From: Deltaproteobacteria bacterium
GTDB taxonomy: Bacteria > Desulfobacterota > Syntrophorhabdia > Syntrophorhabdales > Syntrophorhabdaceae
DNA length: 54,167 nt
Assembly: GCA_029777945.1 (NCBI GenBank)
Contig: JAKORG010000037.1
Span: 1 to 54,167, forward strand
Reading direction: 5' to 3'
Part shown: positions 2 through 16,677 of the stretch, one piece after another
Position numbering within the stretch: the stretch's first letter is position 1
Layout: every line of letters starts with the position of its first letter
The notes under the pieces: generated by a model
The model's database searches: none
What the model saw: the letters and a program-made list of their open reading frames with translations, nothing else
What the model was told of the DNA's origin: nothing
Translations under genes and position numbers: made by a program

Positions 2-323
2 GTCGCAATCCCTTCTAAATGAGGTCAGGTTTCCAATATAAAAAAGCAACGGAATTACAAGCAGAGGTTTACAGTCGCAATCCCTTCTAAATGAGGTCAG
101 GTTTCCAATTTATGGGTTCATGTTTATCCTCCTTTATGTGGTATAGTCGCAATCCCTTCTAAATGAGGTCAGGTTTCCAATATACAAAATCACAGGTTAT
201 ATTGACGCAAAGGTAAAGTCGCAATCCCTTCTAAATGAGGTCAGGTTTCCAATCTCTCAAGGTTACAAACAGTGGGGATTGGGTTGAGTCGCAATCCCTT
301 CTAAATGAGGTCAGGTTTCCAAT
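2..323 (-). CRISPR. CRISPR array, leader-proximal end (5 repeats, 4 full spacers)
   Basis: Five identical 36-bp repeats lie at 2-37, 74-109, 146-181, 218-253 and 288-323. They are separated by unique spacers of 36, 36, 36 and 34 bp. On the minus strand each repeat begins ATTGGAAACC and ends GGGATTGCGAC, so the last eight bases (ATTGCGAC) would form the crRNA 5' tag left by Cas6. That end, the AT-rich flank on the right and the minus-strand cas genes all indicate minus-strand transcription with the leader at 324-462. The repeats have little internal symmetry, as expected for a Cas6 that binds unstructured RNA. The array starts at the left window edge and almost certainly continues beyond it. 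Confidence 0.98.
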
Positions 324-462
324 AGCTTGCTCTATTTTCCCTTTTAAATTCAATATATTGCAAATAGGGTTGTGCAACTTTTTCATTCATGAATGAGTTA
401 TTAAAAGACCTCATCTTATATTTAATTTTCAAAGAACAATTTTTAAAAACATTAACATAAAT
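324..462 (-). promoter_or_regulatory. CRISPR leader
   Basis: This is a 139-bp, strongly AT-rich non-coding stretch between the last repeat and the small gene at 463-678. It sits where transcription and spacer acquisition should start. It holds a perfect 14-bp palindrome, TCATTCATGAATGA, at 383-396 and a shorter symmetric element GTTG-TG-CAAC at 369-378. On the minus strand it reads GTTCTTTGAAAATT near 430. The leader role follows from position and repeat polarity; the palindromes could be protein-binding sites. Confidence 0.75.
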
Positions 463-678
463 TTATAATTTTTTGAAACTAAAATCTTCATTTTCTATCT
501 CATTATCTTTAAGCGCTTCATCTTCATCTGTCCAATACTTGCACCTTTTTTCTAAACCTTCTTCTACTTCATATTCTTCACAAGAATAAAGGGGTATACA
601 TGGCATATTTTTTAATCTGCACCATCTACCACCAGATGCATATATGGATAGACCAAAAATGTCAAAGAGATCATCCAT
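463..678 (-). CDS. Small cysteine-containing protein next to cas6, unknown function
   Basis: A 71-residue acidic protein that I do not recognise. Its ATG (678-676) follows the cas6 stop codon with no gap, so it is probably co-translated with cas6, and its stop lies at the edge of the CRISPR leader. The first half has four cysteines (C20, C27, C33, C46) in motifs such as GGRWCRL and LYSCEEY. This could be a small metal site, but the spacing matches no zinc ribbon I know. The C-terminal half is rich in Glu and Asp. There is no signal peptide or membrane segment. It may be an accessory protein for crRNA maturation or adaptation, or a decayed fragment. Position and coupling support a real gene; function is open. 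Confidence 0.55.
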   Translation of the reverse strand: MDDLFDIFGLSIYASGGRWCRLKNMPCIPLYSCEEYEVEEGLEKRCKYWTDEDEALKDNEIENEDFSFKKL

Positions 679-1702: not shown

Positions 1703-1981
1703 TCACCTCAAAAATATCATAACCCCATCAGGGACCCTGTCTCCGCAACCCAATACAAATACCTTTATATCCTGAGGCAGCGGGTATATCCTTATATCGT
1801 CTTCTGACTCGTTTATTATATCATTTAAATCTAATTTTAATTGCTTTAATTCCTGCCAGGTGAGCTGACAGTGAAAAACAGAATACTGTATGTGGACGCC
1901 CTTCTCCTTTAAATATTTGTAAACCCTTGCAAGGCGTCTCTCATCGGCTATGTCGTAGCAGACAAGGTAATTTGACTTCAT
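1703..1981 (-). CDS. cas2: CRISPR-associated endoribonuclease/adaptation protein Cas2 (copy B)
   Basis: A 92-residue Cas2 with the ferredoxin-like N-terminus SNYLVCYDIADERRLARVYK. The metal-binding Asp follows the first strand at D10, and the conserved QYSVFHC segment follows the first helix. It partners Cas1 in the spacer integrase. It lies 15 bp downstream of the degenerate cas1 (1997-2857), and a second cas2 lies upstream at 3907-4188. The two Cas2 proteins differ clearly in sequence outside the core motif, so this is not a recent duplication. No key residue is missing. Confidence 0.93.
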   Translation of the reverse strand: MKSNYLVCYDIADERRLARVYKYLKEKGVHIQYSVFHCQLTWQELKQLKLDLNDIINESEDDIRIYPLPQDIKVFVLGCGDRVPDGVMIFLR

Positions 1982-1996
1982 AAGGATAAATCCACC

Positions 1997-2857
1997 CTAT
2001 GTTATCTTAATCTTTGTCTCAGGTAGTGAGCGAATGTATCGCATGATTTCAAAAAGACCATCTAACACATTGTCAATGAGCCTCTGGGTGAGCTTTTTCT
2101 TATTTTCAAACCTCTGCACCACATTTCTTAGGCCCTCTTCGGTGAGTCTTAAGCCAGTTGAGCTATGTATGAGATAATCATTTGCCTTATCTATCTTAAA
2201 AAACTGAACTGTTTGCATATCTGCCTCAGGCTCCATAGCATAGAAAATGTCGAGGGCCATACCAAAATTATACCTTCTGTTGTATATACCTATATGGGGG
2301 TCAAGGTTTGCCAAAAGTATGCTCCTTAATATCATCTCATTTAGATAATTAGATATAATGGAGTTTACACAGCTCCATCTCTTCTCAGATACAGAGACAT
2401 ATCTTTTTATAAAGTCAGAATAATCCATTTCCCTGAAACCATTGGTTCTGAATATAGCACCTACCTTTTTTGATAGTTTTGTTACCACCTTTAACTGAAT
2501 CTTTCTTCTCTCTGATATAAGCCACTGCCTGTATTTCTCCACCCTTTCCTCATGGACGAGGATAGATTTCTGCTCTTCATAGTGAGAGTTTAGGTTGTGA
2601 TTATAAGGGATAGTGAGTGCTATTTCATTGCCCTTTTTATTCAAGAATGTAACGGGGATATTGTTATCTGTAAAAAGGGTAATGGTGCCTGCATCAAGCC
2701 TTACATTCCCCATGATTATCACATGACCTATGAGCCTTGCAGGGATGCGCCAGCCTGCCTTACCATCCTCTTTTACCCATATGGAAGGCCCATCTCTTGT
2801 AACCACAAGGCCTTTTTTCTCATTCAGATAGAGTGTCCTGTTCAATAAATGCATCAT
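1997..2857 (-). CDS. cas1: Divergent Cas1 paralogue with degenerate active site (copy B)
   Basis: A 286-residue Cas1-family protein. The beta-rich N-terminal domain is recognisable (RTLYLNEKKGLVV, then HVIIMGNVRLDAGTI and NNIPVTFLN). The C-terminal helical domain keeps LDPHIG and ALDIFY. In canonical Cas1 the metal ligands are Glu, the His of G-F-x-H, and an Asp/Glu pair. Here the His position is N193 (GIYN); D203 is present, but the residue three positions later is Tyr rather than an acid. E174 may be the first Glu, though its spacing to LDP is one residue longer than in the neighbouring Cas1. The start overlaps the end of cas1 copy A by 38 bp and has AGGGA upstream. It may be a structural, inactive partner in a mixed integrase, or a decaying copy. 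Confidence 0.85.
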   Translation of the reverse strand: MMHLLNRTLYLNEKKGLVVTRDGPSIWVKEDGKAGWRIPARLIGHVIIMGNVRLDAGTITLFTDNNIPVTFLNKKGNEIALTIPYNHNLNSHYEEQKSILVHEERVEKYRQWLISERRKIQLKVVTKLSKKVGAIFRTNGFREMDYSDFIKRYVSVSEKRWSCVNSIISNYLNEMILRSILLANLDPHIGIYNRRYNFGMALDIFYAMEPEADMQTVQFFKIDKANDYLIHSSTGLRLTEEGLRNVVQRFENKKKLTQRLIDNVLDGLFEIMRYIRSLPETKIKIT

Positions 2858-3854
2858 ACTCGTTCCCTAATATCGTTTTTGCAAGGGCCCTTACCTCATG
2901 GACAAATAATGGCCTTTTTGTTTTTGCCCACCCTTCATATAATGGATAAAACCTCTCTCTGCCTGTCTTTTTCAGGTAACATCCTGGTCTTTCTCTGTCC
3001 TTTGAAAAGTCTCTTACAGTGAAATGACGCTCTCTAAATATACCCCAAACGAATCTATCCACATCCTGCCTGAATAGCTCTACCATGTCACAGGCAAGGG
3101 ATTCCCTGCCATATTCAAACTGGTGATAAAACCCTATTGTTGGGTCAAGCCCGATTGTTTCTATTTCACGAACCATTTCATAATGCAAAAGTGTATAGCA
3201 CAACGAGAGCATGGCATTTACAGGGTCTTCAGGTGGCCTTCTGTTTCTGTTTTTAAAGTTCAAGGATTCCGGGAAGAGTGCAGTATAACCAGTAAAGTAA
3301 GCCGAGGCAGCGCTACCCTCATAACCCCTTAATGTCTCCATTAGAGTTTCAGGCTCTTTATTTAAATTCCCTATTAAACCATTCTTTATTCCTAACAGCT
3401 TCTCATTTATTTTGTCTATGGTTTGAATGGAAGATGTTAAAGGAAAACGCAAATCTGGACGATGGGCAAGCCCTTCATTTAAGAAATCAAGCTGGTTCTT
3501 TATCTTTTTCATTATAAGGTCTAAGGAAAATTCAAGGGGAAAGGATTGTCCAATCGGTCCATTTGATAAGGATTTTTCATACTGTTTTATCCTCAAAAGC
3601 CCATTGTTGTGGAGTCTGCCGTGCAGCATCCCACGAAACCTCATCCTTCTGCCGGATAAAAATACGACCGAAATATTCTTATCAGCAAGCCTGTTTAATA
3701 CAGATGCTTCTAAGGTTACATTTCCGACAATTATCACCCTTTTGAGTGGGGCTATCGGCACCATGCCCTCTCTTTTGTCTTGAGTGTAAAAGGCAAGGGC
3801 ATTATTATCAAGCCTTACACAAATATCTTTGCGGTCAATATAAAGTGTTCCCAT
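2820..3854 (-). CDS. cas1: CRISPR spacer integrase Cas1 (copy A, canonical)
   Basis: A 344-residue Cas1, the catalytic subunit that integrates spacers at the leader end. The C-terminal domain shows the full active site: E226 in LLHYEM, H244 in GLDPTIGFYH, and D256 and E259 in SLACDMVELFR. The RGYEGSAASAYF motif before it is also typical. The N-terminal domain carries KRVIIVGNVTLEA and ISVVFLSGRRMRFRG. It follows cas2 copy A by 52 bp and overlaps cas1 copy B by 38 bp, so the four adaptation genes look co-expressed. The 52-bp gap holds a degenerate word-like repeat (AGTAAATAGTAG). Confidence 0.96.
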   Translation of the reverse strand: MGTLYIDRKDICVRLDNNALAFYTQDKREGMVPIAPLKRVIIVGNVTLEASVLNRLADKNISVVFLSGRRMRFRGMLHGRLHNNGLLRIKQYEKSLSNGPIGQSFPLEFSLDLIMKKIKNQLDFLNEGLAHRPDLRFPLTSSIQTIDKINEKLLGIKNGLIGNLNKEPETLMETLRGYEGSAASAYFTGYTALFPESLNFKNRNRRPPEDPVNAMLSLCYTLLHYEMVREIETIGLDPTIGFYHQFEYGRESLACDMVELFRQDVDRFVWGIFRERHFTVRDFSKDRERPGCYLKKTGRERFYPLYEGWAKTKRPLFVHEVRALAKTILGNEYDAFIEQDTLSE

Positions 3855-3906
3855 AATAACACCTGTTAATAGTAAATAGTAGATGGTGAATGGATACTGT
3901 CCATTT

Positions 3907-4188
3907 TCATCCTATATAAAAATATGCAGGGTCATGGGGTTGAACAGCTATGCCAAGTGTGTGCGTCCTGCTTCGACCATCCATTGTGAATATGTGGATA
4001 CGGTCAAACTCTTCATTTATAATCTCCATTAAGGCCTCTTTTATATAGCCTAATTCCCCTTCGGTTAAAAAGCACTCGTATACAGATTTCTGGCCGCCTG
4101 TTGAATAACCTTTTAAGAAATCGTGCACTTTAGCAAGTCTTCTCTCATTAGATATGTCATAGGCTATAAGGTATAAGGTTCTGCTCAT
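3907..4188 (-). CDS. cas2: CRISPR-associated Cas2 (copy A)
   Basis: A 93-residue Cas2 with LYLIAYDISNERRLAKVHDFL at the N-terminus, carrying D10, and GGQKSVYEC after the first helix, both Cas2 signatures. It is the first gene of the adaptation group on the minus strand and lies just upstream of the canonical cas1, its natural partner. AGAAGGTGATTT gives a plausible ribosome-binding site before the ATG at 4188. The 75 bp upstream, to the end of the lipoprotein gene, show no clear terminator, so it may be transcribed from the lipoprotein promoter or from one I cannot place. Confidence 0.95.
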   Translation of the reverse strand: MSRTLYLIAYDISNERRLAKVHDFLKGYSTGGQKSVYECFLTEGELGYIKEALMEIINEEFDRIHIFTMDGRSRTHTLGIAVQPHDPAYFYIG

Positions 4189-4263: not shown

Positions 4264-4647
4264 TTAGTTTTGAGGCAATACAGCTTTCTGCTGCGTCACC
4301 CTACATTTCATAATCATATGAGCCGGATTGGGCTGCAGGCTATATACAGCTCCTGTTCCATAATCGATAAGCCCACCGAGAATAATACCTGCTGCGGCGA
4401 TGGTTGGAAACACACTCAATGTCTCTGTATCGCATCCTTCCTTTTCAAATCTGAGATTAATGCTCTGATTGCGTTTAAGTGTAATCTGGCAAGGTGTGTA
4501 ACAGGTTTGACCATCAGATAATTTAACAAGCACACCATCGGGTTCAGATGTTATGCTCAACTGCTCTTCTGTGCCGCGAATCATGGTTGCACACCCGGTA
4601 GACAATAGAATTGATGCGATGATGAATAAACCTATGCATTTTTTCAT
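4264..4647 (-). CDS. Small lipoprotein with a PEGA-like segment
   Basis: A 127-residue predicted lipoprotein. The N-terminus is KKCIGLFIIASILL followed by the lipobox STGC, with Cys19 as the likely lipidation site. The mature part contains SITSEPDGVLVKLSDG...TPCQITLKR...EGCDTETL, which resembles a PEGA carbohydrate- or surface-associated fold. A hydrophobic stretch, TIAAAGIILGGLIDYGTGAVY, follows. AGGAGG lies at a good distance from the ATG at 4647. It interrupts the CRISPR locus between csx3 and cas2 and has a hairpin repeat 73-95 bp upstream of its start. I see no family link to CRISPR; it may be a passenger gene. Confidence 0.75.
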   Translation of the reverse strand: MKKCIGLFIIASILLSTGCATMIRGTEEQLSITSEPDGVLVKLSDGQTCYTPCQITLKRNQSINLRFEKEGCDTETLSVFPTIAAAGIILGGLIDYGTGAVYSLQPNPAHMIMKCRVTQQKAVLPQN

Positions 4648-4716: not shown

Positions 4717-4745
4717 AAAGAAACATTTCTGAAACGTTTCTGTTT
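4717..4745. repeat. Hairpin-forming tandem palindrome, copy 1
   Basis: Two tandem palindromes, GAAACATTTC and GAAACGTTTC, spaced by CT. A 23-nt segment of the minus strand can fold into a ten-pair stem (one G-U pair) with loop CAG, followed by TTTTGATG. It starts about 8 bp after the csx3 stop. An almost identical copy with the A and G swapped is at 15400-15428. It could be an AT-rich intrinsic terminator, an operator, or a dispersed repeat. Confidence 0.6.
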
Positions 4746-4752
4746 AGTAATT

Positions 4753-4992
4753 TTAATCAGGGCTATGGTCGAAAATTACAACATCCCCTGTAACAGGGGA
4801 GCGGTATATGAGCCTGCGAGCCTTGCCGTGGAGCGCATGGGCAATTTTGAGATATAGCCACACCGGTCCTGCACCGGTCAAAACCACATCATTTCCCTCT
4901 CCAGCAAGGGTTAGGGCTTTAGCAACATATGTATCAATCTCTTTTATCTTTGCAGTTGTGCTAAATAGTTCTGAAATATCGATAATCTTCAT
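4753..4992 (-). CDS. csx3: Csx3/Crn3-like cyclic oligoadenylate phosphodiesterase
   Basis: A 79-residue protein resembling Csx3, a ring nuclease-like enzyme that degrades cyclic tetra-adenylate in type III systems. The recognisable core is VVLTGAGPVWLYLKIAHALH (residues 36-55), then a strand and GDVVIFDHSPD at the C-terminus. Csx3 proteins share the G-x-GP-[IV]-WLY-x3-[AL]-H segment and a late His. Candidate functional residues are H52, H55, D75 and H76. It is shorter than most Csx3 proteins. The start codon overlaps the csx2 stop by one base (TAATG), so translation is coupled to the effector whose signal it would remove. The family call rests on the motif only. Confidence 0.72.
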   Translation of the reverse strand: MKIIDISELFSTTAKIKEIDTYVAKALTLAGEGNDVVLTGAGPVWLYLKIAHALHGKARRLIYRSPVTGDVVIFDHSPD

Positions 4993-6140
4993 TACATACC
5001 CTTTCCTAAAACATTTTCTGCTTCTTGAATTACATCTTTTACCCTTTTTTCAATTCTATGGGGCGTTGTTTCATGACCTTTTATCTTCATGAATGCGTGG
5101 CCTACATCATTTCTTAACTCTCTTACCTTATTCCATAATTTAAAGATGGGATCATTCGACTTTGTGCAGCTTTCATTTAGCCTCATTGCAATTCCTTCAC
5201 GTTTATCAATATCGTATATGTCAATGTCATCTTTTTCGCATAAAAAAGTAATGATTGACTCCCTGAGCACAAGAAGTGATTGGGTTAAACGATTGTTTTC
5301 AGCATACCATCGGGCAACGGAAAGGTGAGATTTCCATAGAGTTTCTTTTTCAAATTGGCCTGTAAAATCCCTTAACCTTTGAAGTAATAATCCTAAAGGC
5401 TTTACAAATTTATTAGATTCGTCCTCCATTTCCTTTTTTTCAATTATACCTGATAACTCCCTGGCTTCAGGAGCAAGAAGGGGTGTGTAAGTAAGATGAA
5501 GTATCTTTGAAATCTTGTCTAATTTTTTGTAAAAACCACCTAAAACTTTGGGTGTTTTCGATAAACCCTCTTTGAATGCTTTATTATAAACACTGCCAAC
5601 CTTTGACGCCAAAGCATCTGTCTCGCCGTATTTTATAAAGGCATTAACTACATCAATCCAATCGAGCATATCGATAAAGGGAGACATATCCACAATAGGT
5701 GTCTTTTCTTGACCTTGTTCATAACTTCCATAAAACAAATAAGATAGAGTTGCAGTGGGCTCTATATACTGGAATAAACGAACAAAGATGGTAACGAATA
5801 AAGGTAATACCCTGAATCCATGAGTAAAATCGAATATTACCTGAGAATTTTTTATATCGATTTTATCCTTTATTATGTCGAATATCTCCCAGAACTCTTT
5901 TTCATCCCTGCCGTAAGGGATATAGACAGGTGTATATGACAAATTTTCAAGCAAATTCCAGCTTGATTCTTTTGTGCCTATTACGTATGTCCTATCAATG
6001 GGAGTAAAATGTTTATAGATTGCCATGAAGGCAAGTTTTTCAAGGTATTCAGTATTGTCTATCACATATGTTGTTTCTCCGTAGTTTGCCCTGCCCAGAA
6101 ATGCTATTAATACTTTTTGTTTTTTATTCAGTTTATCCAT
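4992..6140 (-). CDS. csx2: CARF-HEPN ribonuclease, Csx2/TM1812 family (Csx1-like)
   Basis: A 382-residue type III ancillary effector. The N-terminal CARF domain opens with KVLIAFLGRANYGETTYVID and later has VIFDFTHGFRVLPL, both signatures of the TM1812 group of Csx1-like proteins. The C-terminal HEPN domain carries RELRNDVGHAF with the R-x4-H pair R343 and H348, the catalytic motif of these ribonucleases. By family knowledge, cyclic oligoadenylate made by Cas10 binds the CARF dimer and switches on non-specific RNA cleavage. It overlaps card1 by 13 bp upstream and csx3 by 1 bp downstream, so effector and off-switch should be made together. Confidence 0.93.
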   Translation of the reverse strand: MDKLNKKQKVLIAFLGRANYGETTYVIDNTEYLEKLAFMAIYKHFTPIDRTYVIGTKESSWNLLENLSYTPVYIPYGRDEKEFWEIFDIIKDKIDIKNSQVIFDFTHGFRVLPLFVTIFVRLFQYIEPTATLSYLFYGSYEQGQEKTPIVDMSPFIDMLDWIDVVNAFIKYGETDALASKVGSVYNKAFKEGLSKTPKVLGGFYKKLDKISKILHLTYTPLLAPEARELSGIIEKKEMEDESNKFVKPLGLLLQRLRDFTGQFEKETLWKSHLSVARWYAENNRLTQSLLVLRESIITFLCEKDDIDIYDIDKREGIAMRLNESCTKSNDPIFKLWNKVRELRNDVGHAFMKIKGHETTPHRIEKRVKDVIQEAENVLGKGM

Positions 6141-7261
6141 TTAGCTATCCTGCTTTTAAGATTTTTTAGGTCTGAGCTATCGCAGAATGCCAGCCTATTC
6201 GCAGAAAGACGCATTTTCTGAGCATCTGTTAGCTTCTGGTATGAAACAAGCATCCCTTTTCCATATATGCCTCCTGCAGCATCACGAAGATTTTCTAATT
6301 TGTATATAGGTTCGTTGTTAAAAATTCCTCTATCTGCTCCTTCGAAACGCTTTGTTTTGCATTCTATAAGAAATAATCGATTATTATATGTGAATACCAC
6401 ATCGTATTCGTTCATTGGTAATCTTGAACTGATATTGTCTAATTTGACTTCTACACCCATACGCACATCTGTAACAGGAAGGGTGCCTACAGTATAAAAT
6501 ACATATTCCTCCAGCCATCCTCCAGAGGCAAATTCCACATTTTTAAGGTCTGGGAAACTGATTAGCCCATTATTATATTTTAGTATTTTGTGACTTTCAA
6601 AAATATCAATAAGCTGTCTGAAACTTTGTTTTTCATAATCTCTCTGTTCTATCTTTTTCTCATAATGAAATGTTTTTTCTTTTCTTAACGTTGCAACATA
6701 ACTATTAAAGATTTTAATTGCATCCTGATAGGTTTCACAGATTTTTACGAGCTCTTTTATTAAAGGAAGGTGTTCTTTGAGCTCAGTATCTGTTACTGTT
6801 CGTTCCTGTAATATAATCTGTCCATATGCATTCAAATATGTTGGCACTTTCAATACACCTTTAAAATTTATTTGTTGCTGTTTGGGCGATAGTGTTTGAA
6901 TCCATTTATCCTGTGTATCAACATAGATGATTTTTTTTCCAAATTCTCTGAAGACCTCAAAGGCAGCAAAGGCCATAATCTTTGTGCCGCCTGTGGCGTT
7001 TAAGATTATTTCGCTATCTCTATTTTCGGTAAGGATTTTCATGCAGGTATCCCGTGCAGCATCGAGGTCGTATGGCGCAACTGGCACACGTTCAACCTTT
7101 ATACCCCAGCCCTTTATTACCTTTTCGAGCCTGTCAGCCTGAATCTTCATATCAGGGCTTACAAGGAGTATCACTCTATCAGGCCGGAGTTCCTCCATGC
7201 GCAGAGGGATTAGATTCGGTATAGGTTGGGCAGAGACAAGACAGACATGGATACGGGTCAT
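6128..7261 (-). CDS. card1: Card1/Can2-type CARF nuclease (DUF1887)
   Basis: A 377-residue protein with an N-terminal CARF domain and a C-terminal PD-(D/E)xK nuclease. The CARF loop is ILNATGGTKIMAFAA (residues 86-100). The nuclease residues are E251/E252 in GGWLEEYVF, D287 in NEYDVVF and E300-C-K302 in LFLIECKTK. This layout matches Card1/Can2 enzymes, which nick or degrade nucleic acid when cyclic tetra-adenylate binds. All catalytic positions are intact. It starts 21 bp after csm5 and overlaps csx2 by 13 bp, so it belongs to the csm transcript. DNA versus RNA preference cannot be read from sequence. Confidence 0.94.
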   Translation of the reverse strand: MTRIHVCLVSAQPIPNLIPLRMEELRPDRVILLVSPDMKIQADRLEKVIKGWGIKVERVPVAPYDLDAARDTCMKILTENRDSEIILNATGGTKIMAFAAFEVFREFGKKIIYVDTQDKWIQTLSPKQQQINFKGVLKVPTYLNAYGQIILQERTVTDTELKEHLPLIKELVKICETYQDAIKIFNSYVATLRKEKTFHYEKKIEQRDYEKQSFRQLIDIFESHKILKYNNGLISFPDLKNVEFASGGWLEEYVFYTVGTLPVTDVRMGVEVKLDNISSRLPMNEYDVVFTYNNRLFLIECKTKRFEGADRGIFNNEPIYKLENLRDAAGGIYGKGMLVSYQKLTDAQKMRLSANRLAFCDSSDLKNLKSRIAKWIN

Positions 7262-7282: not shown

Positions 7283-8806
7283 TTAATTTTCATCAATCCT
7301 CACAATCTTAAATGCATTACCCAATGGTTCAACAATGATATTCGCTTTTATACCTTTTCTCTTTTCAAATAGAGTTTTGTGGTATCTCTCGGGGACAATG
7401 GATTTGTCATCACCTATTTTTAGTTCAGCCTTTTTATTCTCATAGCTGGCAATCAATGTCTTATTGCCAGGTGAATAAGTAACGTATGCCCCAGGCCAGG
7501 TAATGGGTTGGGGAGACTGTTTAGGAGGAATTTTTCTGTCTTCTTCCTCTAATTGTGCTATTGCTTCTAATTGAATCATATTTTGTGCTTGTTCTTTTTT
7601 TGTAGATACGGGCATTTTATTTTCAAAAAATATTGGGTTTCCTTTTTCGTAAGGCATAATTTTAAGTGCATTCCAGCCAAGAGGAATGTAAGAATCTTCT
7701 CTTATCCATATACGTCTTGATTTGGGTGCTTCATCGTTACCCCTGTTTAACCCAGCATAATTACGAATCTTTTTTCTCAAATCATCAGATAATAAGGTGA
7801 AGATAGTTGTTGCCATCATGCCTGAACCAAAACCCATTCGAAAGTTTGGTATTAATGTTTTAAAATCATAAAATTTTACCTTACTTTGATTTGAAAAAAA
7901 CGATTTTTCAGCCTTTATAACATCGTTTGTCCATTCTTCAATATTTTTCATAATTTCTTCTAAGTTCTTTGGCAACTTTATATCAGAATTTGAATTACTG
8001 AATTCAGTAAGTAATCTTCTGTCCCATGTCATTTGAAATCTAAACGATACATTTTCAGGAATACATTCAACCCATATGGTGGTTGGCTTTCCAGTGTTAT
8101 CTTTTTTTAACTGCCAACCATTTTTTTCTTTCTTCAATACGTTAACGGGGATTATTATAGGCTCAAAATGTTTCTCAGGGTAGGCATCAGTGATGTGAAG
8201 CATCTTTAGCCAGTCAGTATGTGGAGACCCTTTTTTATCATCTATAAGAAAAGATTGTAACCATTCTTCGTTTCCCCACTCGAACATCCTCTTTTTATTT
8301 TTCTTATTCCTTATATCTTGCTCAATTCTTTTTTCAATTTGTGTGGAAAATTGGGTAGGGTCTTTTTCCTTTAAATTTTTAAGAATACAGTAAAGAATTG
8401 CAGTCCTTATAACACCCTTTATTGAAGTTCCTGGTATGTATATATTTCCCATACCATCTCTCATAAAAGGTTTATAATCCTGCATCTGTAATGGGTCAGT
8501 GTCTAATTTGGCACGTCTTCCGCCGCTCAAGTTTAAAAGATAATTATTATCCACTTGCACTTTTTGTTTTTGTAAAAAATCCAAAATCCTGAAACGATGA
8601 CCTTCTCTTTCAAATTCAATAACAAATTTGTCAATTAAATTTAATTTTGCAAGAAATTTTGAAAGCATTTCTTCAGATATATGATAGACATAGCCATTCT
8701 TGATAATGTACTCAAAAGGGGTTAATTTTTGTTCAACACCACCAATATGAATGGGAGTTAATGTGCTTAAAACGCCAACTCTTGCCTCAAATACCTCATC
8801 TAACAT
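7283..8806 (-). CDS. csm5: Type III-A effector subunit Csm5
   Basis: A 507-residue RAMP protein that caps the crRNA 3' end of the Csm complex and takes part in crRNA trimming. The N-terminus has VLSTLTPIHIGGVEQKLTP and about 110 residues later NIYIPGTSIKGVIRTAIL, the conserved Csm5 segment. A glycine-rich loop, RMGFGSGMMAT, lies in the middle. It is longer than many Csm5 proteins (about 350-420), with extra charged sequence in the C-terminal third, including KIPPKQSPQPITW and a final beta-rich part. It lies 3 bp after csm4. Confidence 0.92.
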   Translation of the reverse strand: MLDEVFEARVGVLSTLTPIHIGGVEQKLTPFEYIIKNGYVYHISEEMLSKFLAKLNLIDKFVIEFEREGHRFRILDFLQKQKVQVDNNYLLNLSGGRRAKLDTDPLQMQDYKPFMRDGMGNIYIPGTSIKGVIRTAILYCILKNLKEKDPTQFSTQIEKRIEQDIRNKKNKKRMFEWGNEEWLQSFLIDDKKGSPHTDWLKMLHITDAYPEKHFEPIIIPVNVLKKEKNGWQLKKDNTGKPTTIWVECIPENVSFRFQMTWDRRLLTEFSNSNSDIKLPKNLEEIMKNIEEWTNDVIKAEKSFFSNQSKVKFYDFKTLIPNFRMGFGSGMMATTIFTLLSDDLRKKIRNYAGLNRGNDEAPKSRRIWIREDSYIPLGWNALKIMPYEKGNPIFFENKMPVSTKKEQAQNMIQLEAIAQLEEEDRKIPPKQSPQPITWPGAYVTYSPGNKTLIASYENKKAELKIGDDKSIVPERYHKTLFEKRKGIKANIIVEPLGNAFKIVRIDEN

Positions 8807-8809
8807 AGC

Positions 8810-9793
8810 TTATCCTCCAAATGGAGCTGTAAAGGCATAGCCATATCTAAATACCTTGTGGTTTAAAGCATTATAAGGGCCATTATTGGGACTTACATCA
8901 ATAAGACAGCCTATGGGACGCCAGTTAACTACAGAACCTTCAACAAAAAACCCCACAGATTTCCTTTTCAAAGGTAAAGCATTTCTTCCTGACGTAATCC
9001 AGCCTTTTTTTCTTACCGTTTCATATGCGACTATACCTTCTTTAAGAAAACTTATCTCACTTGAGGAAGGGTGATAAAGTGATAACAAAACAAATTGTGA
9101 TAAGTTTGTTTTGAATATTTTATCAAATACATTTTCGATTTTTTTAAAATCTATCACTTTAAACATACCTGATCCATATGTCTTCTCTCCTCCAAGCCCA
9201 ATTTCTCCTAAGTTAATCAAAATATTCTGAAATAATTCAACTGTATTGGAATCCTTAAAGGCCACAAATCCATAAAGGCCAGCATTCTTTTTAAAATATA
9301 CATAACCACAATGATATAGGTTGCTATTTTGAGTTGCCCTATCCAGAGATACCCTTGGCCTAACCTCAATTGTATACGCATTCTTATAGTTTTCGAGGTT
9401 ACTTTTCATTATTTCTAAATCGTTTTCATCCAACTCATCTCCCGATATCCACTTTAAAAACATTTTATCTGAAAGCCATATAATCTTTTTCAATTCCTTT
9501 CCAAGCTCTCTTTTCAATTCTTCCTTTAACTGACCATCAAAAAGTGGGCGTGGTAAATAAAATGTGTCTCCGCTATAAAGAAAAAGAGAGCTTATTATAA
9601 AAGGTGGGCTTTCGATAAAGTCTTTTAATAATGTATTTGTTTTCTCTTGCCCATATAGAATATTTACAGTATTTATAAGGGCTGAAAAAAGAGTATCAGA
9701 GCTTACTCTTTCAGTAACATTTTCAAGCTCTATACCTGTGTCACCAAAATGGGTAGGGCCTTTAAATTTCAACCTGTAAATGTATATATCCAT
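8810..9793 (-). CDS. csm4: Type III-A effector subunit Csm4
   Basis: A 327-residue RAMP subunit that holds the crRNA 5' tag and joins Cas10 to the Csm3 backbone. The N-terminus is IYRLKFKGPTHFGDTGIELEN, followed by SSDTLFSALINTV, both typical of Csm4. The glycine loop GEIGLGGEKTYGSGMFKV lies near residue 195-212. The C-terminus ends RYGYAFTAPFGG, close to the usual Csm4 end. Spacing is 8 bp after csm3 and 3 bp before csm5, so translation is likely coupled. Confidence 0.94.
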   Translation of the reverse strand: MDIYIYRLKFKGPTHFGDTGIELENVTERVSSDTLFSALINTVNILYGQEKTNTLLKDFIESPPFIISSLFLYSGDTFYLPRPLFDGQLKEELKRELGKELKKIIWLSDKMFLKWISGDELDENDLEIMKSNLENYKNAYTIEVRPRVSLDRATQNSNLYHCGYVYFKKNAGLYGFVAFKDSNTVELFQNILINLGEIGLGGEKTYGSGMFKVIDFKKIENVFDKIFKTNLSQFVLLSLYHPSSSEISFLKEGIVAYETVRKKGWITSGRNALPLKRKSVGFFVEGSVVNWRPIGCLIDVSPNNGPYNALNHKVFRYGYAFTAPFGG

Positions 9794-9801
9794 TTCTACC
9801 T

Positions 9802-10614
9802 CTACATTTTACTTGTATTAAAAAGGCTATTTATTCTCATAATCTCAGTTTCATCAAGAGACTTGCAAACGACATGCCCCGCTATTTTGCTTTTATCCTT
9901 TATATAATCTATAGACATTGCTTCGATTTTCTCTATTTTAAAAGATATCTTTCCATAACCCCTTGAACCATGACCGCCTAATGCATCCAATTCCAATAGC
10001 TCAAAGGCAAGCTTTAAGTTTTTTAGGTCGGTCTCTAAATGTTCTGGGTTTTCAATATTATAAATAACTTCAAGTTTAAACTCTGCACCCCTGGGAACCC
10101 TTTCAATCTGTCTCGGGTTTGCAGCAGAAGTAACCCTGTCTATGGCATTTTCGAACTTCCATTCTGTATACTGAAGGCCAGTATCAATATCGGAGAGTCT
10201 TTCCACGCTTTCGGGAGTAAGATAAAGGTCCCGAACAATAAGTCTTGATGGGAAGTTGTCACTTCCTTCTGCTCTGCCTGCAGTTGAGCCAAATAAACGG
10301 CACAATTTACAATTTATTGCTTCATTACTGTTGTCACACACATGAATCTTTACAGGATTTTTGTCTGTGCCTATATTTCTTTTGTTAATTAAATTAGGTT
10401 CTGATGGTGATAATGCCTTTTCCAACAATGTTCTCAACTTGCCCTTAAAAGATGAACCAGGAATATATGGTTCTCTTGTTACAGGATCCCGCACAACCGG
10501 TGCATCAATTGCCCCTATCTCCATGTTTTCTTTAGAAGCCCCGATGTGAAGCCCTGTTTCACATATGACGAAACCATCTATAACTGTTTTGCCTAAAAGC
10601 ATTCTGTTTTCCAT
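9802..10614 (-). CDS. csm3: Type III-A backbone and target-RNA nuclease Csm3
   Basis: A 270-residue RAMP protein, the repeated backbone subunit that cuts target RNA every 6 nt. The N-terminus is LLGKTVIDGFVICETGLHIG, followed by GAIDAPVVRDP, where the Asp before APVV matches the catalytic Asp of Csm3. Then comes PYIPGSSFKGKLRTLLE, and the glycine loop LGGHGSRGYGKISF lies near the C-terminus. A cysteine pair in CKLCRLFG is also common. I place the start at the ATG at 10614 because a perfect AGGAGG stands a few bases upstream. A start at 10653 would overlap csm2 and add 13 residues. Confidence 0.96.
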   Translation of the reverse strand: MENRMLLGKTVIDGFVICETGLHIGASKENMEIGAIDAPVVRDPVTREPYIPGSSFKGKLRTLLEKALSPSEPNLINKRNIGTDKNPVKIHVCDNSNEAINCKLCRLFGSTAGRAEGSDNFPSRLIVRDLYLTPESVERLSDIDTGLQYTEWKFENAIDRVTSAANPRQIERVPRGAEFKLEVIYNIENPEHLETDLKNLKLAFELLELDALGGHGSRGYGKISFKIEKIEAMSIDYIKDKSKIAGHVVCKSLDETEIMRINSLFNTSKM

Positions 10615-10636
10615 AAATCCCCCTCCTAAATTATTA

Positions 10637-11086
10637 TTAATCTGCTCCACCATAAAATTTATGATATGCTACAATAGCCTCTATAAATGAAAGTAATTTT
10701 TTAAAGTCAGCATAACTTTTGCCAGCTCCTGCAATTGCAGGTTGAAGTACTTCCATTAATGGCCTAACTGATTGATTTCTACCTGCAGCGTATGCTAATT
10801 TAGGCTTCAAAAGCACAACCTGATCTTCTAAAAAATCTTTACCTTTATTAAACTGTACATCAAGCTTTCTGATTCCGTCTAAAAACCTTCTTATCTGAGT
10901 TGTTTTAAGGCCTGTATCTTTAAGGTGCTTACCCAACTTTTCTGCTACATCCACTAAAGAGTTTGCTGGAAGTTTTGAAAGGCCATCAGATTGAAACTTG
11001 CTAATCTCTTCTCTCAAATTCTTAACAAGGGCATTTGCATCCCCTTCCGAAGAACCTTTCTTCTTATGATAAAAATTACCGTTCAT
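10637..11086 (-). CDS. csm2: Type III-A small subunit Csm2
   Basis: A 149-residue, mostly helical protein, the small subunit that lines the crRNA-target duplex. Diagnostic segments are TTQIRRFLDGIRKLD, VVLLKPKLAYAAGR and the C-terminal FKKLLSFIEAIVAYHKFYGG. The start overlaps the end of cas10 by 11 bp, and csm3 follows after 22 bp. Length and motifs are normal for Csm2; the first 20 residues are basic and likely disordered. Confidence 0.94.
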   Translation of the reverse strand: MNGNFYHKKKGSSEGDANALVKNLREEISKFQSDGLSKLPANSLVDVAEKLGKHLKDTGLKTTQIRRFLDGIRKLDVQFNKGKDFLEDQVVLLKPKLAYAAGRNQSVRPLMEVLQPAIAGAGKSYADFKKLLSFIEAIVAYHKFYGGAD

Positions 11087-13541
11087 CCTCTTTACCTCCT
11101 TTCCTCATAAGCATTAAAATTATCAGAGTAGCTAACTCTGTAATCTTCCATTCCTTTTCATTTGAGTTCATAATGGCATCATTGAATTGCATCTTTATTT
11201 CTGGTTCATGGGTCCCAATGCGTGCCCTCGATAACAAATAGGCAGCCTTCGGCAACACCAATACTCCATCTTCATTAAACCTTCTTGCAAGGGCAAGTAA
11301 TCTATAGAAGAAAGTCTTTGGCAATTTCTTTTCATCAATCCTGAAATATTTTTCTCCCTGAATAAGAAACTTTTCAAAAATAAATACTCTCTCCTTTAGT
11401 CTTTCCACATCAGGCCATCTCAGTGGCTTTCCTTTAAAAAAGGTTATGGCATTTTTTCTGGCCTTTGTCTCATTCTCCTCCTTAAAGTTCTTTGCTTCTT
11501 TTTCAGCGTTATCTGCCTCCCTTGCATACAGATAAATAGGATATTTATTGTGGTTTATTGAGATTCCACCTGATATTGTAATGAATGGATTACCCGTGTA
11601 TTTTTCAAAATAATTCCTTATATCAATCCCTGCTTCCATTACATCAAGCCAGTGGCCAACTATAAATAGGTCGTCACCTCCTGAATAAACTATGGAAAGC
11701 ATCCTATCGTTGTAGGTAGCTCTATCTGCAATATTGGCGTGAACAACAACACTGTTTTTATAATTACTGCTTACAATCATATTCAGATAGAATTTAAAAA
11801 AATCATTTAGCGCCCTGGATATGGATGCCATCCTTGAAAAGGTTCGATGTTCAAGAGGGACTGCTTGTGAAAATATCTTTCCCAAACTATCCACATCCAT
11901 CCTCAAAACTGCAAGCCTATTAATCCCAAAAACATCAGAGGCATCTGAAAGTTCTTTCAAATCTCTGTGCTGGTAGATACCAATAGGCAGAAATATAGAG
12001 CTAGGGTGATAATATTTTTCTACATCAAGGCTATTTATGATGTATACCTTTTTTGCAAGCCTGTCCATATCGGGGTTTCGCTTAGATAAAACATAGTATG
12101 AATTTCCAATGATAAGTGTTTTTTCACTCACTTCATTGTAATCTTTTTCATCAAAGCTATAGATGACATAGTCTTTCGATTTGGAAGCTTCTTTTAAAGC
12201 ATTTCCCAGCTCATATTGAATACTACAGGGTCTACACACATGTTCATATATCTGTTCGCTTCCACTAAAAACAGGTTCAAGAGGGAGATCCTCTCTGAAA
12301 CATACCTCACAATATCTTGTTAAACAATCATTATGGGGCATTGAAGAAGTAATAATATCTTCGAGTCTTTCATTCCACTTTTTCTTTTTTGACTCTTCCA
12401 GTTTTTTTGAAAGTTCTGGCCATAAATCTTGGGAGTTTTGAAAGGCATCTGGATGAAACTCAACTGTCTCTAAGTTCAAAAAAAGACTACCGCTAAATTG
12501 TTTAAATAAAAGGTCATTTATCTCCTTCTTTACATTTTCAATGGTTACCTTTGCTTCAGCAGTATTATAAGAAAGTATATAAAAAGACCCGCCACCGGAA
12601 AATATGATATTGCATCTTGTGAGTTTAAGACGTTCTATAATCTCTGAAACGATATGCTCAATCAAAAATTCTACATAAAATGATCTTCCTTTTAAAGATT
12701 TTAATGCACCCTTTGAAGTTATTGTATAAATAAACTTTTGAATTCCCGAAATATCTCCACCTATTAAAAGATAAGGTCTTTTATCTTTGGGCACATTTAA
12801 TATTTCATCCTTTAAAAGTTCATTTTTAATCCATTTTGCTGAAAATTCTTTACTGTAGTAGTGATACATACAGCCTGCTATTGCTGCCGTTAATTTAAGA
12901 TGGTCAAAAAGGGAAAGATCAGGGTGCTTATCTTTTATTTCCTCTTTCTTTAAACCATCGTAAATCCTCATGGTTATAGAAGGGATATTTTTAAGATGTT
13001 TTTCAATAAGCATCAGCAAAAAATTAATAGAACTTTTATTTTCAGGTATATGAGAGTTTAGATCTTCTTCAAATTCAGAAAGTATTTGTTCATAGTCTTT
13101 TCTTGAACATGATGGTTCTTCAGTAAGCGTAAAAGGAATGCCATCTGACTTAAGGGGAAGATAAGTAATGAGCGGCTTTTTATTTGTATCTAAAGGATTA
13201 TTTACTCTGCTAAATGGAGAGGCCATAGCAATCTCTGAATGCCATTTACCTTCTTCGAGTTTCTCCTTATCTTTCCTTTCTTTAGATGCGAGATTGTCTG
13301 ACTGATACCAAATAAGACCCAGGTTATTGTTTAATGCATAGTCATCGTCCTTTGTATAATGATGGGCAATAGCGGCAAGCTTTGCTGGATGCTTTTGAAA
13401 ATGCGTTTCCAGCCATTCGTATCCCCACTCTGTATGTTTTTTTGATGTTGGATTATTGTTCGCCCTCTGGACAACCTTTCCTATATCGTGCAATAATGCC
13501 CCTAAGACCACAGTTTCAAATTCTTGTTCATTAAATGACAT
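11076..13541 (-). CDS. cas10: Cas10/Csm1, HD nuclease and cyclic oligoadenylate synthase
   Basis: An 821-residue large subunit of the type III-A complex. The N-terminal HD domain shows VVLGALLHDIGKVVQR, with the HD pair near residues 18-19, and AIAHHYTKDD further on. The first palm-like domain has IGGDISGIQKFIY and FSGGGSFYIL. A zinc-ribbon region carries CEVCFRE and CRPC. The second palm domain has the synthase motif YSGGDDLFIVG. Both catalytic sites are intact, so ssDNA cleavage and cyclic oligoadenylate synthesis are expected on target RNA binding. It is the first gene of the csm operon, with AAGGGGGTTTAG before the ATG. The upstream 75 bp hold an inserted repeat. Confidence 0.97.
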   Translation of the reverse strand: MSFNEQEFETVVLGALLHDIGKVVQRANNNPTSKKHTEWGYEWLETHFQKHPAKLAAIAHHYTKDDDYALNNNLGLIWYQSDNLASKERKDKEKLEEGKWHSEIAMASPFSRVNNPLDTNKKPLITYLPLKSDGIPFTLTEEPSCSRKDYEQILSEFEEDLNSHIPENKSSINFLLMLIEKHLKNIPSITMRIYDGLKKEEIKDKHPDLSLFDHLKLTAAIAGCMYHYYSKEFSAKWIKNELLKDEILNVPKDKRPYLLIGGDISGIQKFIYTITSKGALKSLKGRSFYVEFLIEHIVSEIIERLKLTRCNIIFSGGGSFYILSYNTAEAKVTIENVKKEINDLLFKQFSGSLFLNLETVEFHPDAFQNSQDLWPELSKKLEESKKKKWNERLEDIITSSMPHNDCLTRYCEVCFREDLPLEPVFSGSEQIYEHVCRPCSIQYELGNALKEASKSKDYVIYSFDEKDYNEVSEKTLIIGNSYYVLSKRNPDMDRLAKKVYIINSLDVEKYYHPSSIFLPIGIYQHRDLKELSDASDVFGINRLAVLRMDVDSLGKIFSQAVPLEHRTFSRMASISRALNDFFKFYLNMIVSSNYKNSVVVHANIADRATYNDRMLSIVYSGGDDLFIVGHWLDVMEAGIDIRNYFEKYTGNPFITISGGISINHNKYPIYLYAREADNAEKEAKNFKEENETKARKNAITFFKGKPLRWPDVERLKERVFIFEKFLIQGEKYFRIDEKKLPKTFFYRLLALARRFNEDGVLVLPKAAYLLSRARIGTHEPEIKMQFNDAIMNSNEKEWKITELATLIILMLMRKGGKEDER

Positions 13542-13561: not shown

Positions 13562-13614
13562 AGAAGACAGAACACAGACCGTTCCGCTTTGCGGAACTGA
13601 CAGAAGACAGACTG
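13562..13614. repeat. Left inverted terminal repeat with hairpin
   Basis: Contains AGACAGA-like 7-bp units, ACAGACC at 13574-13580, a perfect 7-bp stem hairpin GTTCCGC-TTT-GCGGAAC at 13581-13597, then TGACAGA at 13598-13604 and AGACAGA. On the opposite strand the same ACAGACC...TGACAGA core recurs at 14026-14046. The segment ends two bases before the stop of the four-helix-bundle gene. Confidence 0.8.
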
Positions 13615-13615
13615 T

Positions 13616-14005
13616 TCATTTTATATACCTCTCTTTTATTATGTTGCTTGATTCCAGGCTCTTAGAAAAACCTGTTATCATTGCTGCAATTTCATCGGCT
13701 TCTATAGCTAATTTTTCAAATTCTGTTTCACTCAAATATTTTAATTTAAGAGCTATCTCAAGGCAGGCCATTAGTTCATACGCCGACCGCAAAGATATCT
13801 CGAGAAATCTTTTGAATTCTCTTTCCGAAGAATTGCCACTTCCTTCTGCAATATTAAGCGCTATTGATATGGCTGCTCTCCGAATCTGGCTTGTTAATCC
13901 ATGCACTTCTTCTTTTGGGAAGGACCCTGTGGTTTTATAGATTTCTGTAGAATATTCTATGGCCCTTTTATAAACTTTTAGATTTCTGAAATTATGCCTC
14001 ATCAT
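13616..14005 (-). CDS. Four-helix-bundle protein (23S rRNA IVS / S23 family)
   Basis: A 129-residue protein of the family named after ORFs in 23S rRNA intervening sequences; related bundles include the Avd proteins of diversity-generating retroelements. Signatures are NFRNLKVYKRAIEYSTEIY, FPKEEVHGLTSQIRRAAISI, NIAEGSGN and FKRFLEISLRSAYEL. The biochemical role is unknown; Avd proteins bind nucleic acid. Two ATGs in tandem (14005 and 14002) are preceded by GAGGGCAG repeat units, so the flanking short tandem repeat itself serves as the ribosome-binding site. It is not inside rRNA here but between cas10 and a DUF2130 gene. Confidence 0.93.
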   Translation of the reverse strand: MMRHNFRNLKVYKRAIEYSTEIYKTTGSFPKEEVHGLTSQIRRAAISIALNIAEGSGNSSEREFKRFLEISLRSAYELMACLEIALKLKYLSETEFEKLAIEADEIAAMITGFSKSLESSNIIKERYIK

Positions 14006-14063
14006 CTGCCCTCTGCCCTCTGCCCTCTGTCAGCGAAGCGGTCTGTCTTCTGTCTTCTGTCCC
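14006..14063. repeat. Right inverted terminal repeat of 7-bp units
   Basis: On the plus strand three CTGCCCT-type 7-bp units are followed by TCTGTCA (14026-14032), the spacer GCGAAGC (14033-14039), GGTCTGT (14040-14046) and two more CTTCTGT units. The reverse complement gives ACAGACC-spacer-TGACAGA, matching the left end in order and polarity. The stop of the DUF2130 gene (14030-14032) falls inside the core. Confidence 0.8.
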
Positions 14064-15399: not shown

Positions 15400-15428
15400 A
15401 AAGAAACGTTTCTGAAACATTTCTGTTT
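15400..15428. repeat. Hairpin-forming tandem palindrome, copy 2
   Basis: Tandem GAAACGTTTC and GAAACATTTC with the same CT spacer and flanks (AAA before, TGTTT after) as the copy at 4717-4745. The minus strand folds into a ten-pair stem with loop CAG, followed by TTTAATGG. It lies 63-85 bp upstream of the DUF2130 ATG and about 80 bp past the stop of the CARF gene. Confidence 0.6.
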
Positions 15429-15507: not shown

Positions 15508-16677
15508 TTATCTGCCCTCTATCTTTATCTTAGCCTTTTCAACCCTTATACCATATAAACTCTCACCGTAACGTTTCATACACGATATTTTGCATAAGGG
15601 TTTTAATGCCTCATCCTCTAAGTGCTCATTTATTGACTTGTTTATTTTACTTATGTTCTGCCTTATGAGTTCAACGGACATACCGTCCTTCCATTTCCTT
15701 ATAAACTCCTCTGTGCGCATGGGGCTATTCTTATAGACTATGCTATGGTCAAGAGCCATTTCCTCCACGTATTGCCTTGAAGTTAGACCGCTTTTTATTG
15801 TTACAAAGCAATCAGTGCACTGTTCACAGTAATTTCTTTCAGGATGTTGACAGTGGTTCAGCTTCTGTTTCAAAAAGATATTGTAAAAAACGATAAGATA
15901 TGGAAGCATATTTATAATATTTGAGCCTATCTTAATGTAACGCTCAGACAGATTTATGATGAGTTCAGGCTGAACTATTGCCGTATCTATTGTGCGCTGA
16001 CCTTCAAGGACAAGTTCACGGAAGTCCTCTTTCTGAAATGATATCTTTCCGCTGAGCCTTATAAACGGTAGCTCTGCAAGGTCTATCACTGCATCATCTG
16101 TGTTTAGTGTAATAGGTCTGCCATCTGGCCCTTTCCCTTCAATGACCCTATTCTTTTTTGGTTTATAGAAAAACTCAGGGTTTGATTCGAATTTAGGGGT
16201 GACAAGGACATGGTATAGCCTGTCTTGAGGTCGACCGAATAATTGGAGCGCTGCACCAAGATAGAAACTCATGGTTTTTCTGCCACCTGCTATAGAGCAG
16301 TGAAGTCTCACTGATGGATCCTTTGCCTTTTCCCTGATAAGAGAAGTAATAATATTACCTATGAGTTCATTTTCTTGTTCGTTCCTTATATCATCAATCT
16401 CGTTATTATATTTATCTTTTGGTATAACAAAAGACTCCTCTGTAATACGTATCTCCGGGATACCCAGTTCAGAATACATTTCTTTGAGTATTCCGTTATC
16501 GATGAGGGATGTTTTTATAATATTTTTTCCTATCAAGGTTGTTATGATGAAAATTTCGTGGGGATAAATGGGTGGCTTTTTCTGTGATAAGGCATAGATT
16601 GTCTCTGTGATTATCTGAGGGGTTGTTCCAGCAACAAAAATAAAAAGCTCTTTATAGGCTTCTTTGATCTTTACCAT
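15508..16677 (-). CDS. CARF-domain CRISPR-associated protein, NE0113-like family
   Basis: A 389-residue protein with an N-terminal CARF Rossmann fold: FIFVAGTTPQIITETIYAL (residues 12-30), EIFIITTLIG, and the ligand-loop motif CSIAGGRKTMSFYLGAAL (127-144). This matches the NE0113-type CARF proteins of type III loci, some relatives of which act as ring nucleases. A later cysteine group (C276, C284, C287, C290) could bind zinc. I see no HEPN R-x4-6-H or PD-(D/E)xK motif, so degradation or sensing of cyclic oligoadenylate is more likely than a toxic effector role. A perfect TATAAT lies at 16687-16692, only about 10 bp before the ATG. The last codons fall in a CTGCCCTCT-type repeat. Confidence 0.85.
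   Translation of the reverse strand: MVKIKEAYKELFIFVAGTTPQIITETIYALSQKKPPIYPHEIFIITTLIGKNIIKTSLIDNGILKEMYSELGIPEIRITEESFVIPKDKYNNEIDDIRNEQENELIGNIITSLIREKAKDPSVRLHCSIAGGRKTMSFYLGAALQLFGRPQDRLYHVLVTPKFESNPEFFYKPKKNRVIEGKGPDGRPITLNTDDAVIDLAELPFIRLSGKISFQKEDFRELVLEGQRTIDTAIVQPELIINLSERYIKIGSNIINMLPYLIVFYNIFLKQKLNHCQHPERNYCEQCTDCFVTIKSGLTSRQYVEEMALDHSIVYKNSPMRTEEFIRKWKDGMSVELIRQNISKINKSINEHLEDEALKPLCKISCMKRYGESLYGIRVEKAKIKIEGR

Follow-up and report, generated by a model that had tools for sequence, protein, structure and literature searches.

A conserved Cas2–Cas1–Cas1–Cas2 module at type III CRISPR loci carries an intact Cas1 and a second Cas1 homologue without the metal-ligand set

Introduction

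Known integrases of clustered regularly interspaced short palindromic repeats (CRISPR) systems hold four identical Cas1 subunits on a Cas2 dimer; two of these subunits catalyse the joining reactions, and the remaining pair walls in the DNA channel. In the well-studied enzymes the same Cas1 serves in catalytic and in structural positions, so that any mutation aimed at one role affects the other as well. Here we describe an adaptation module of different composition, found in a 54,167-nucleotide stretch of DNA (the window) that makes up contig JAKORG010000037.1 of a Deltaproteobacteria bacterium (assembly GCA_029777945.1; our contig G000:C85, from a 2.4-Mb genome that is 97.45 per cent complete). 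The window carries a type III-A CRISPR locus on its minus strand, in which four genes, cas2A, cas1A, cas1B and cas2B, sit between the effector genes and cas6 with the array.

The closest described systems are homomeric Cas1–Cas2 integrases, in which Cas1 dimers flank a Cas2 dimer, and which share with the present module the Cas1 and Cas2 families, a locus with an array, and both active and inactive Cas1 positions (PMC12259127, PMC6895254). In such integrases active Cas1 subunits stand at the two ends and inactive ones line the repeat channel (PMC12259127), and in a type II system the repeat is contacted by a non-catalytic Cas1 (PMC6895254). Unlike these, the module described here has two cas1 and two cas2 genes, and one of its Cas1 proteins lacks the ligand set in all 51 relatives. 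Cas4–Cas1–Cas2 systems are alike in that an extra subunit can make an integrase asymmetric, with Cas4 setting spacer orientation (PMC9048733); in the present case asymmetry would instead stem from paralogues, and no cas4 was found among the profiled window genes. The RT–Cas1 (reverse transcriptase–Cas1) adaptation modules of type III share the type III context, but no reverse transcriptase was found among the same profiled genes.

A diverged second Cas1 has a counterpart in PADLOC, where profile PDLC01185 is labelled 'Cas1, diverged variant, second in the loci'. Curators had evidently noticed such a protein, because in addition to this label the profile is the top match for the distant Cas1B of two loci, L060 (59.8 bits) and L138 (49.8 bits). 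The entry is a label only, without a mechanism, an active-site statement or a second Cas2. PDLC01185, which has no curated cut-off, matches all 13 A5 members weakly, and among six further members scanned it was the best profile only for L060 and L138. Its score for the window Cas1B (21.2 bits, last of 19 hits) does not show it to be the profile of that protein's own branch. No account of the module, of the lost site of the second Cas1, of the paired Cas2 or of a mixed integrase was found in searches of the open-access literature.

Conservation of the four-gene module

All four genes lie on the minus strand and are read in the order cas2A (3907–4188; 93 amino acids), cas1A (2820–3854; 344 amino acids), cas1B (1997–2857; 286 amino acids) and cas2B (1703–1981; 92 amino acids). 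The original prediction, made from the sequence without database searches, had placed a cas2–cas1–cas1–cas2 arrangement here, with an intact Cas2 beside each Cas1 and a 38-bp overlap of the two cas1 genes. This is borne out by the coordinates, the end of cas1A and the start of cas1B sharing positions 2820–2857, and by profile searches in which both small proteins exceed the Cas2 cut-offs of NCBIfam and of Pfam (CRISPR_Cas2, PF09827; 61.8 bits for Cas2A and 76.6 bits for Cas2B against 23.8). Cas2A carries the motif GGQKSVYECFL, and the N-terminal Asp of Cas2 is kept in both lineages, as AYD in 48/48 Cas2A and as CYD in 49/49 readable Cas2B.

A search of other genomes for the same gene order, which had been proposed as a check, shows that it recurs. 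Homologues of Cas1B were gathered into 51 distinct loci including the window, a set that is by its construction selected for holding Cas1B, and the order Cas2A–Cas1A–Cas1B–Cas2B on a single strand is present in 47 of them. The remaining four are L135 and L138 (Cas2A not found), L059 (a broken Cas1A gene at a contig end, past which its Cas1B extends) and L136 (a truncated Cas1B with Cas2B only). Chance or local duplication as the origin of the arrangement is rejected on this recurrence. Fifty loci have both cas1 genes, and in 43 of these the two open reading frames (ORFs) overlap, by exactly 26 nt in 12 as counted from the longest-ORF starts.

Because the 51-locus set had been chosen by way of Cas1B, a reverse search by Cas1A was also run. 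At E ≤ 1e-60, Cas1A matches were obtained in 30/245 genomes of one phylum and in 14/395 of the window's phylum, and Cas1B adjoins Cas1A in 41 of these 44 genomes, including all 33 with scores above 400 bits. Three matched genomes are without Cas1B: G608 (Cas2A–Cas1A–Cas2B), G497 (a single Cas1 with a single Cas2 where the contig ends) and G175 (a single Cas1 with two Cas2). The named carriers of the module include Syntrophorhabdaceae, several Nitrospirota and a metagenome-assembled genome named Deferribacteres. One carrier, G597, has further cas1 genes elsewhere in its genome.

Active sites of the two Cas1 proteins

In Cas1 proteins a Glu, a His and an Asp or Glu act as metal ligands. Cas1A, which scores 244.4 bits against Pfam Cas_Cas1 (PF01867, cut-off 22.3) and 189.5 bits against NCBIfam TIGR00287 (cut-off 71.7), holds the full site. 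Its catalytic Glu is E179, within RGYEGSAASAYF, which falls on the EG..A..Y motif when aligned with solved Cas1 proteins; this residue is kept in 50/50 relatives, and for H244, D256 and E259 the count is 49/50 each, the exception for all three being the broken gene of L059. The original prediction had been right about H244, D256 and E259 but had taken E226 for the Glu, an assignment that is rejected since the conserved motif sits at E179.

The corresponding positions of Cas1B were mapped by sequence alignment and motif spacing rather than by superposition. A HMMER alignment to 4xtk and the spacing G140–Y146, equal to G180–Y186 in Cas1A, put the Glu position at N139; a profile–profile alignment of Cas1B with Cas1A aligned the LDPHIG and LDIFY segments well and left the Glu unplaced. 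On this mapping the predicted replacements, N193 for the His and Y206 for the second acid, are correct, and of the usual ligands only the first acid, D203, is kept. Across the family the Glu position is Lys in 11 and Glu in 9 proteins and otherwise varied, and of the 50 proteins readable at the His position 23 have His, 14 Asn, 5 Tyr and 4 Asp. Asp or Glu stands at the first acid in 50/51, and the second is acidic in 1/49. All three ligands together occur in 0/51 Cas1B proteins, gapped rows counted, and alignment does not restore the site; a restored His and acidic pair would have told against the prediction. The R.RRPP.DP loop of the active site is likewise present in 49/50 Cas1A and in 0/51 Cas1B.

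Cas1B has conserved features of its own, namely RDGPS at residues 21–25, H188 within LDPH (His in 45/51) and E251 (Glu in 49/49 readable proteins). It exceeds the gathering score of Pfam Cas_Cas1 (58.7 bits against 22.3) and misses the NCBIfam equivalog cut-off for the Cas1 endonuclease (TIGR00287; 53.6 against 71.7 bits). Because no member of the family holds the three ligands together, copy B is, as judged from its sequence, a Cas1 homologue that is not classed as a catalytic Cas1.

The loss of the ligands does not extend to the predicted architecture. An AlphaFold2 model of Cas1B built from 13 sequences reached a mean predicted local distance difference test score (pLDDT) of 84.6 and a predicted template modelling score of 0.81, and by Foldseek and VIA-align it matches Cas1 structures along almost its full length; with Pyrococcus horikoshii Cas1 (4wj0) the VIA Z is 26.0 and the root-mean-square deviation 2.8 over 267 residues. 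Both domains of the Cas1 fold are found in the model, over residues 6–277, and Cas1B is thus predicted to retain the whole fold. The model of Cas1A was weaker (pLDDT 74.6) and served for helix order only.

History and selection

A quick maximum-likelihood tree was built from 128 Cas1 proteins. In it, 50 Cas1A and the Cas1 of G608 form one clade (SH-aLRT 99), and 48 Cas1B all lie on one side of a branch (SH-aLRT 99). The long branches of the Cas1B of L060, L137, L138 and L139 leave the deepest part of the tree unsure; Cas1A and Cas1B each look like a single clade. The two Cas2 of G608 fall in the Cas2 A and B clades (supports 99 and 96), and because its Cas1 also lies inside the Cas1A clade, G608 has probably lost Cas1B and kept both Cas2. 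At a further locus, L186 (3708–5259), a single cas1 precedes two cas2 genes that differ from each other; the Cas1 falls outside the Cas1A clade, and its site looks intact.

The prediction that copy B is maintained agrees with the conservation of the gene alongside copy A and the two cas2 genes, and with its state in the nearest relative that has the module (G002), where Cas1B is intact at 69 per cent identity. Between the window and G002 the codon-position identities of cas1B are 0.75, 0.86 and 0.46. The ratio of nonsynonymous to synonymous divergence (dN/dS) had also been proposed as a check. Synonymous divergence was saturated in most pairs, and for Cas1B the pair L063–L064 alone gave usable values, 0.08 by NG86 or 0.17 by YN00, against 0.08 by both methods for Cas1A. 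By these values Cas1B is under purifying selection in that pair.

The array and its spacers

The CRISPR array (2–323, minus strand) has 5 repeats of 36 nt in the window and 35 more on contig C45. Of these 40 repeats 39 are identical, and the changed one, a degenerate terminal repeat, stands at the far end of the array; the leader would therefore be on the cas6 side, putatively at 324–678 (minus strand) between cas6 and the array. No two of the 38 complete spacers are identical, and their lengths are 31–39 nt. As cas1A and cas1B are the only cas1 genes that turned up in a Pfam Cas1 search of the 97.45 per cent complete genome, the module is likely the builder of this array. Elsewhere, 29 module loci contain 33 arrays, every one on the same strand as the module, and the pattern GACCT...AAGGGATTG.GAC is common to most of the repeats. 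No match was obtained for the part of the window's array with 35 repeats in the phage collection, for the module in the plasmid collection or for Cas1B among viral contigs.

It had been suggested that a mixed integrase could set spacer orientation. The spacers of 34 arrays (the window's and those from 29 of the other 50 loci; 631 spacers) are pyrimidine-rich on the CRISPR RNA (crRNA) strand, with 43.4 per cent purine overall and less than 50 per cent in 30/34 arrays, and this bias fits the rule that crRNAs are antisense to purine-rich messages. Arrays at loci without Cas1B are similar, at 44.0 per cent purine in L185 (26 spacers) and 43.0 per cent in L184 (13 spacers), a control of 39 spacers only. 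Because these two arrays show it too, the bias carries nothing special on Cas1B, and a special role of Cas1B in spacer orientation is not specifically supported. An open-frame test on the spacers gave no signal in the 34-array set (p 0.41) or in the window's own 38 spacers (p 0.88).

A mixed integrase and its alternatives

The best explanation, and one that we consider probable on the comparative evidence, is a mixed integrase in which Cas1A would be the catalytic and Cas1B a structural subunit, on Cas2A and Cas2B, because copy B is maintained and, together with copy A and the two Cas2, makes up a conserved unit; the loss of the ligands across the family points the same way. Cas1A would then take the two catalytic positions of the integrase and Cas1B the two structural ones, and the simplest arrangement would have A–B pairs at both ends of a Cas2A–Cas2B scaffold. 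Cas1A would be needed at both ends: a complex with an A–A pair at one end and a B–B pair at the other could not finish an insertion that has two ends, and the repeats of the array are fully duplicated. On balance we lean slightly towards the broader statement that this is a natural heteromeric CRISPR integrase whose catalytic and structural Cas1 positions are divided over two genes, a division that would span more than one phylum of type III-bearing bacteria. If so, the two roles lie on separate genes and each could be altered alone. Type III systems need no protospacer-adjacent motif, and the module would offer a route to study how they achieve accurate, possibly directional uptake. For annotation there is a simple caution, that two cas1 hits do not amount to two active Cas1 proteins.

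Several observations weigh against a mixed integrase and are best taken together. The complex that the original prediction had envisaged is one whose physical existence, stoichiometry and binding of DNA by Cas1B as a structural subunit we infer from the genes. Pairwise distances of Cas1A and Cas1B are strongly correlated (r 0.90; 0/999 permutations as high), and this is the expectation for one inherited operon, in which co-inheritance without contact would give the same result. The rate of change of Cas1B is about double that of Cas1A, and no Cas2A was found in L135 and L138. Degradation of copy B in close relatives had been named as a refuting result, and although the closest relative holds an intact gene, Cas1B is broken in 3 of the 51 loci, by a TAG nonsense codon in L052, by truncation in L071 and as the truncated remnant of L136. 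Finally, the G608 locus (L184, 3946–6817) reads cas2A–cas1A–cas2B, without Cas1B, beside a 14-repeat array of similar repeat type. Since Cas2A, Cas1A, Cas2B and an array are all held there, Cas1B can be lost, and L184 is a natural control for what Cas1B adds.

The main alternative is that the four genes encode two separate complexes, with Cas1A–Cas2A as an ordinary integrase and Cas1B–Cas2B as a non-catalytic DNA binder that captures, protects or hands over prespacers, or restrains uptake. Each Cas1 does adjoin its own type of Cas2, the remnant in L136 holds only the Cas1B–Cas2B pair, and in L057 and L058, both among the 47 loci with the full order, about 3.4 kb including an NE0113 gene separates cas2A–cas1A from cas1B–cas2B, so that the pairs are separable as pairs. 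However, the retention in G608 of both Cas2, each in its own clade, suggests that Cas2B serves Cas1A too, and it is the cas1A and cas1B frames that overlap in most loci. We regard two complexes as rather unlikely, if still the strongest competitor to the mixed integrase.

It might also be proposed that Cas1B has kept enzymatic activity by means of a rearranged active site that would use E143, H188 and D203 (or E251). The conservation of H188, D203 and E251 given above would suit such a site, and E143 is Glu in 36/51. Yet that leaves E143 variable, as the usual His position is, proteins whose site is normal can also have His where Cas1B has H188 (1/50 Cas1A; casposase 6opm), and the R.RRPP.DP loop is missing throughout (51/51), which together make a rearranged site, read from residue conservation, improbable. 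Least credible of all is a decaying duplicate without function: its fast evolution, the three broken copies and its absence from G608 would suit that view, but Cas1B is intact in most loci over more than one phylum, is under purifying selection, conserves RDGPS, LDPH and E251, and has a single-clade history with Cas1A.

Setting of the module within the locus

On the minus strand the locus reads from an NE0113-type CARF gene through cas10/csm1, csm2 to csm5, a Card1-like nuclease, a Csx1-type effector, a csx3-like gene and a small PEGA-type gene to the module, cas6 and the array. The presence of Cas10/Csm1 with the csm2–csm5 set places it in type III-A, csm2 being assigned from position and size only. 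The effector genes occupy 7283–13541 (Cas10/Csm1 585.9, Csm3 248.1, Csm4 179.5 and Csm5 117.4 bits). Upstream of them in the reading direction is the NE0113-type CARF protein (15508–16677; NCBIfam TIGR02584, 214.6 bits), and towards the module follow the Card1-like CARF-nuclease (6128–7261; Pfam Card1_endonuc, 91.5 bits), the Csx1-type CARF-HEPN effector (4992–6140; PADLOC, 252 bits) and the csx3-like gene (4753–4992; Pfam Cas_csx3, 31.2 bits), which recurs next to the module in many loci with flanks read. Downstream of the module is cas6 (679–1692; PADLOC Cas6, 360 bits), the crRNA endoribonuclease; in L028 (415–1295) cas6 is split into two ORFs next to an intact module.

Some smaller features of the locus may be recorded. 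The gene at 4264–4647, between the csx3-like gene and cas2A, has a weak PEGA-domain match, and a longer, weakly similar gene (19 bits) stands at the equivalent spot in G002. Two copies of a near-palindrome, at 4717–4745 and 15400–15428, are 93 per cent identical, and each lies upstream of a minus-strand gene (starts at 4647 and 15361); they are a candidate shared operator. A gene for a protein of the 23S rRNA-intervening-sequence type (13616–14005, PF05635) also lies within the CRISPR locus, flanked by 27-nt inverted repeats that are 89 per cent complementary (13562–13588 and 14032–14058), and together with these repeats it looks like an inserted element.

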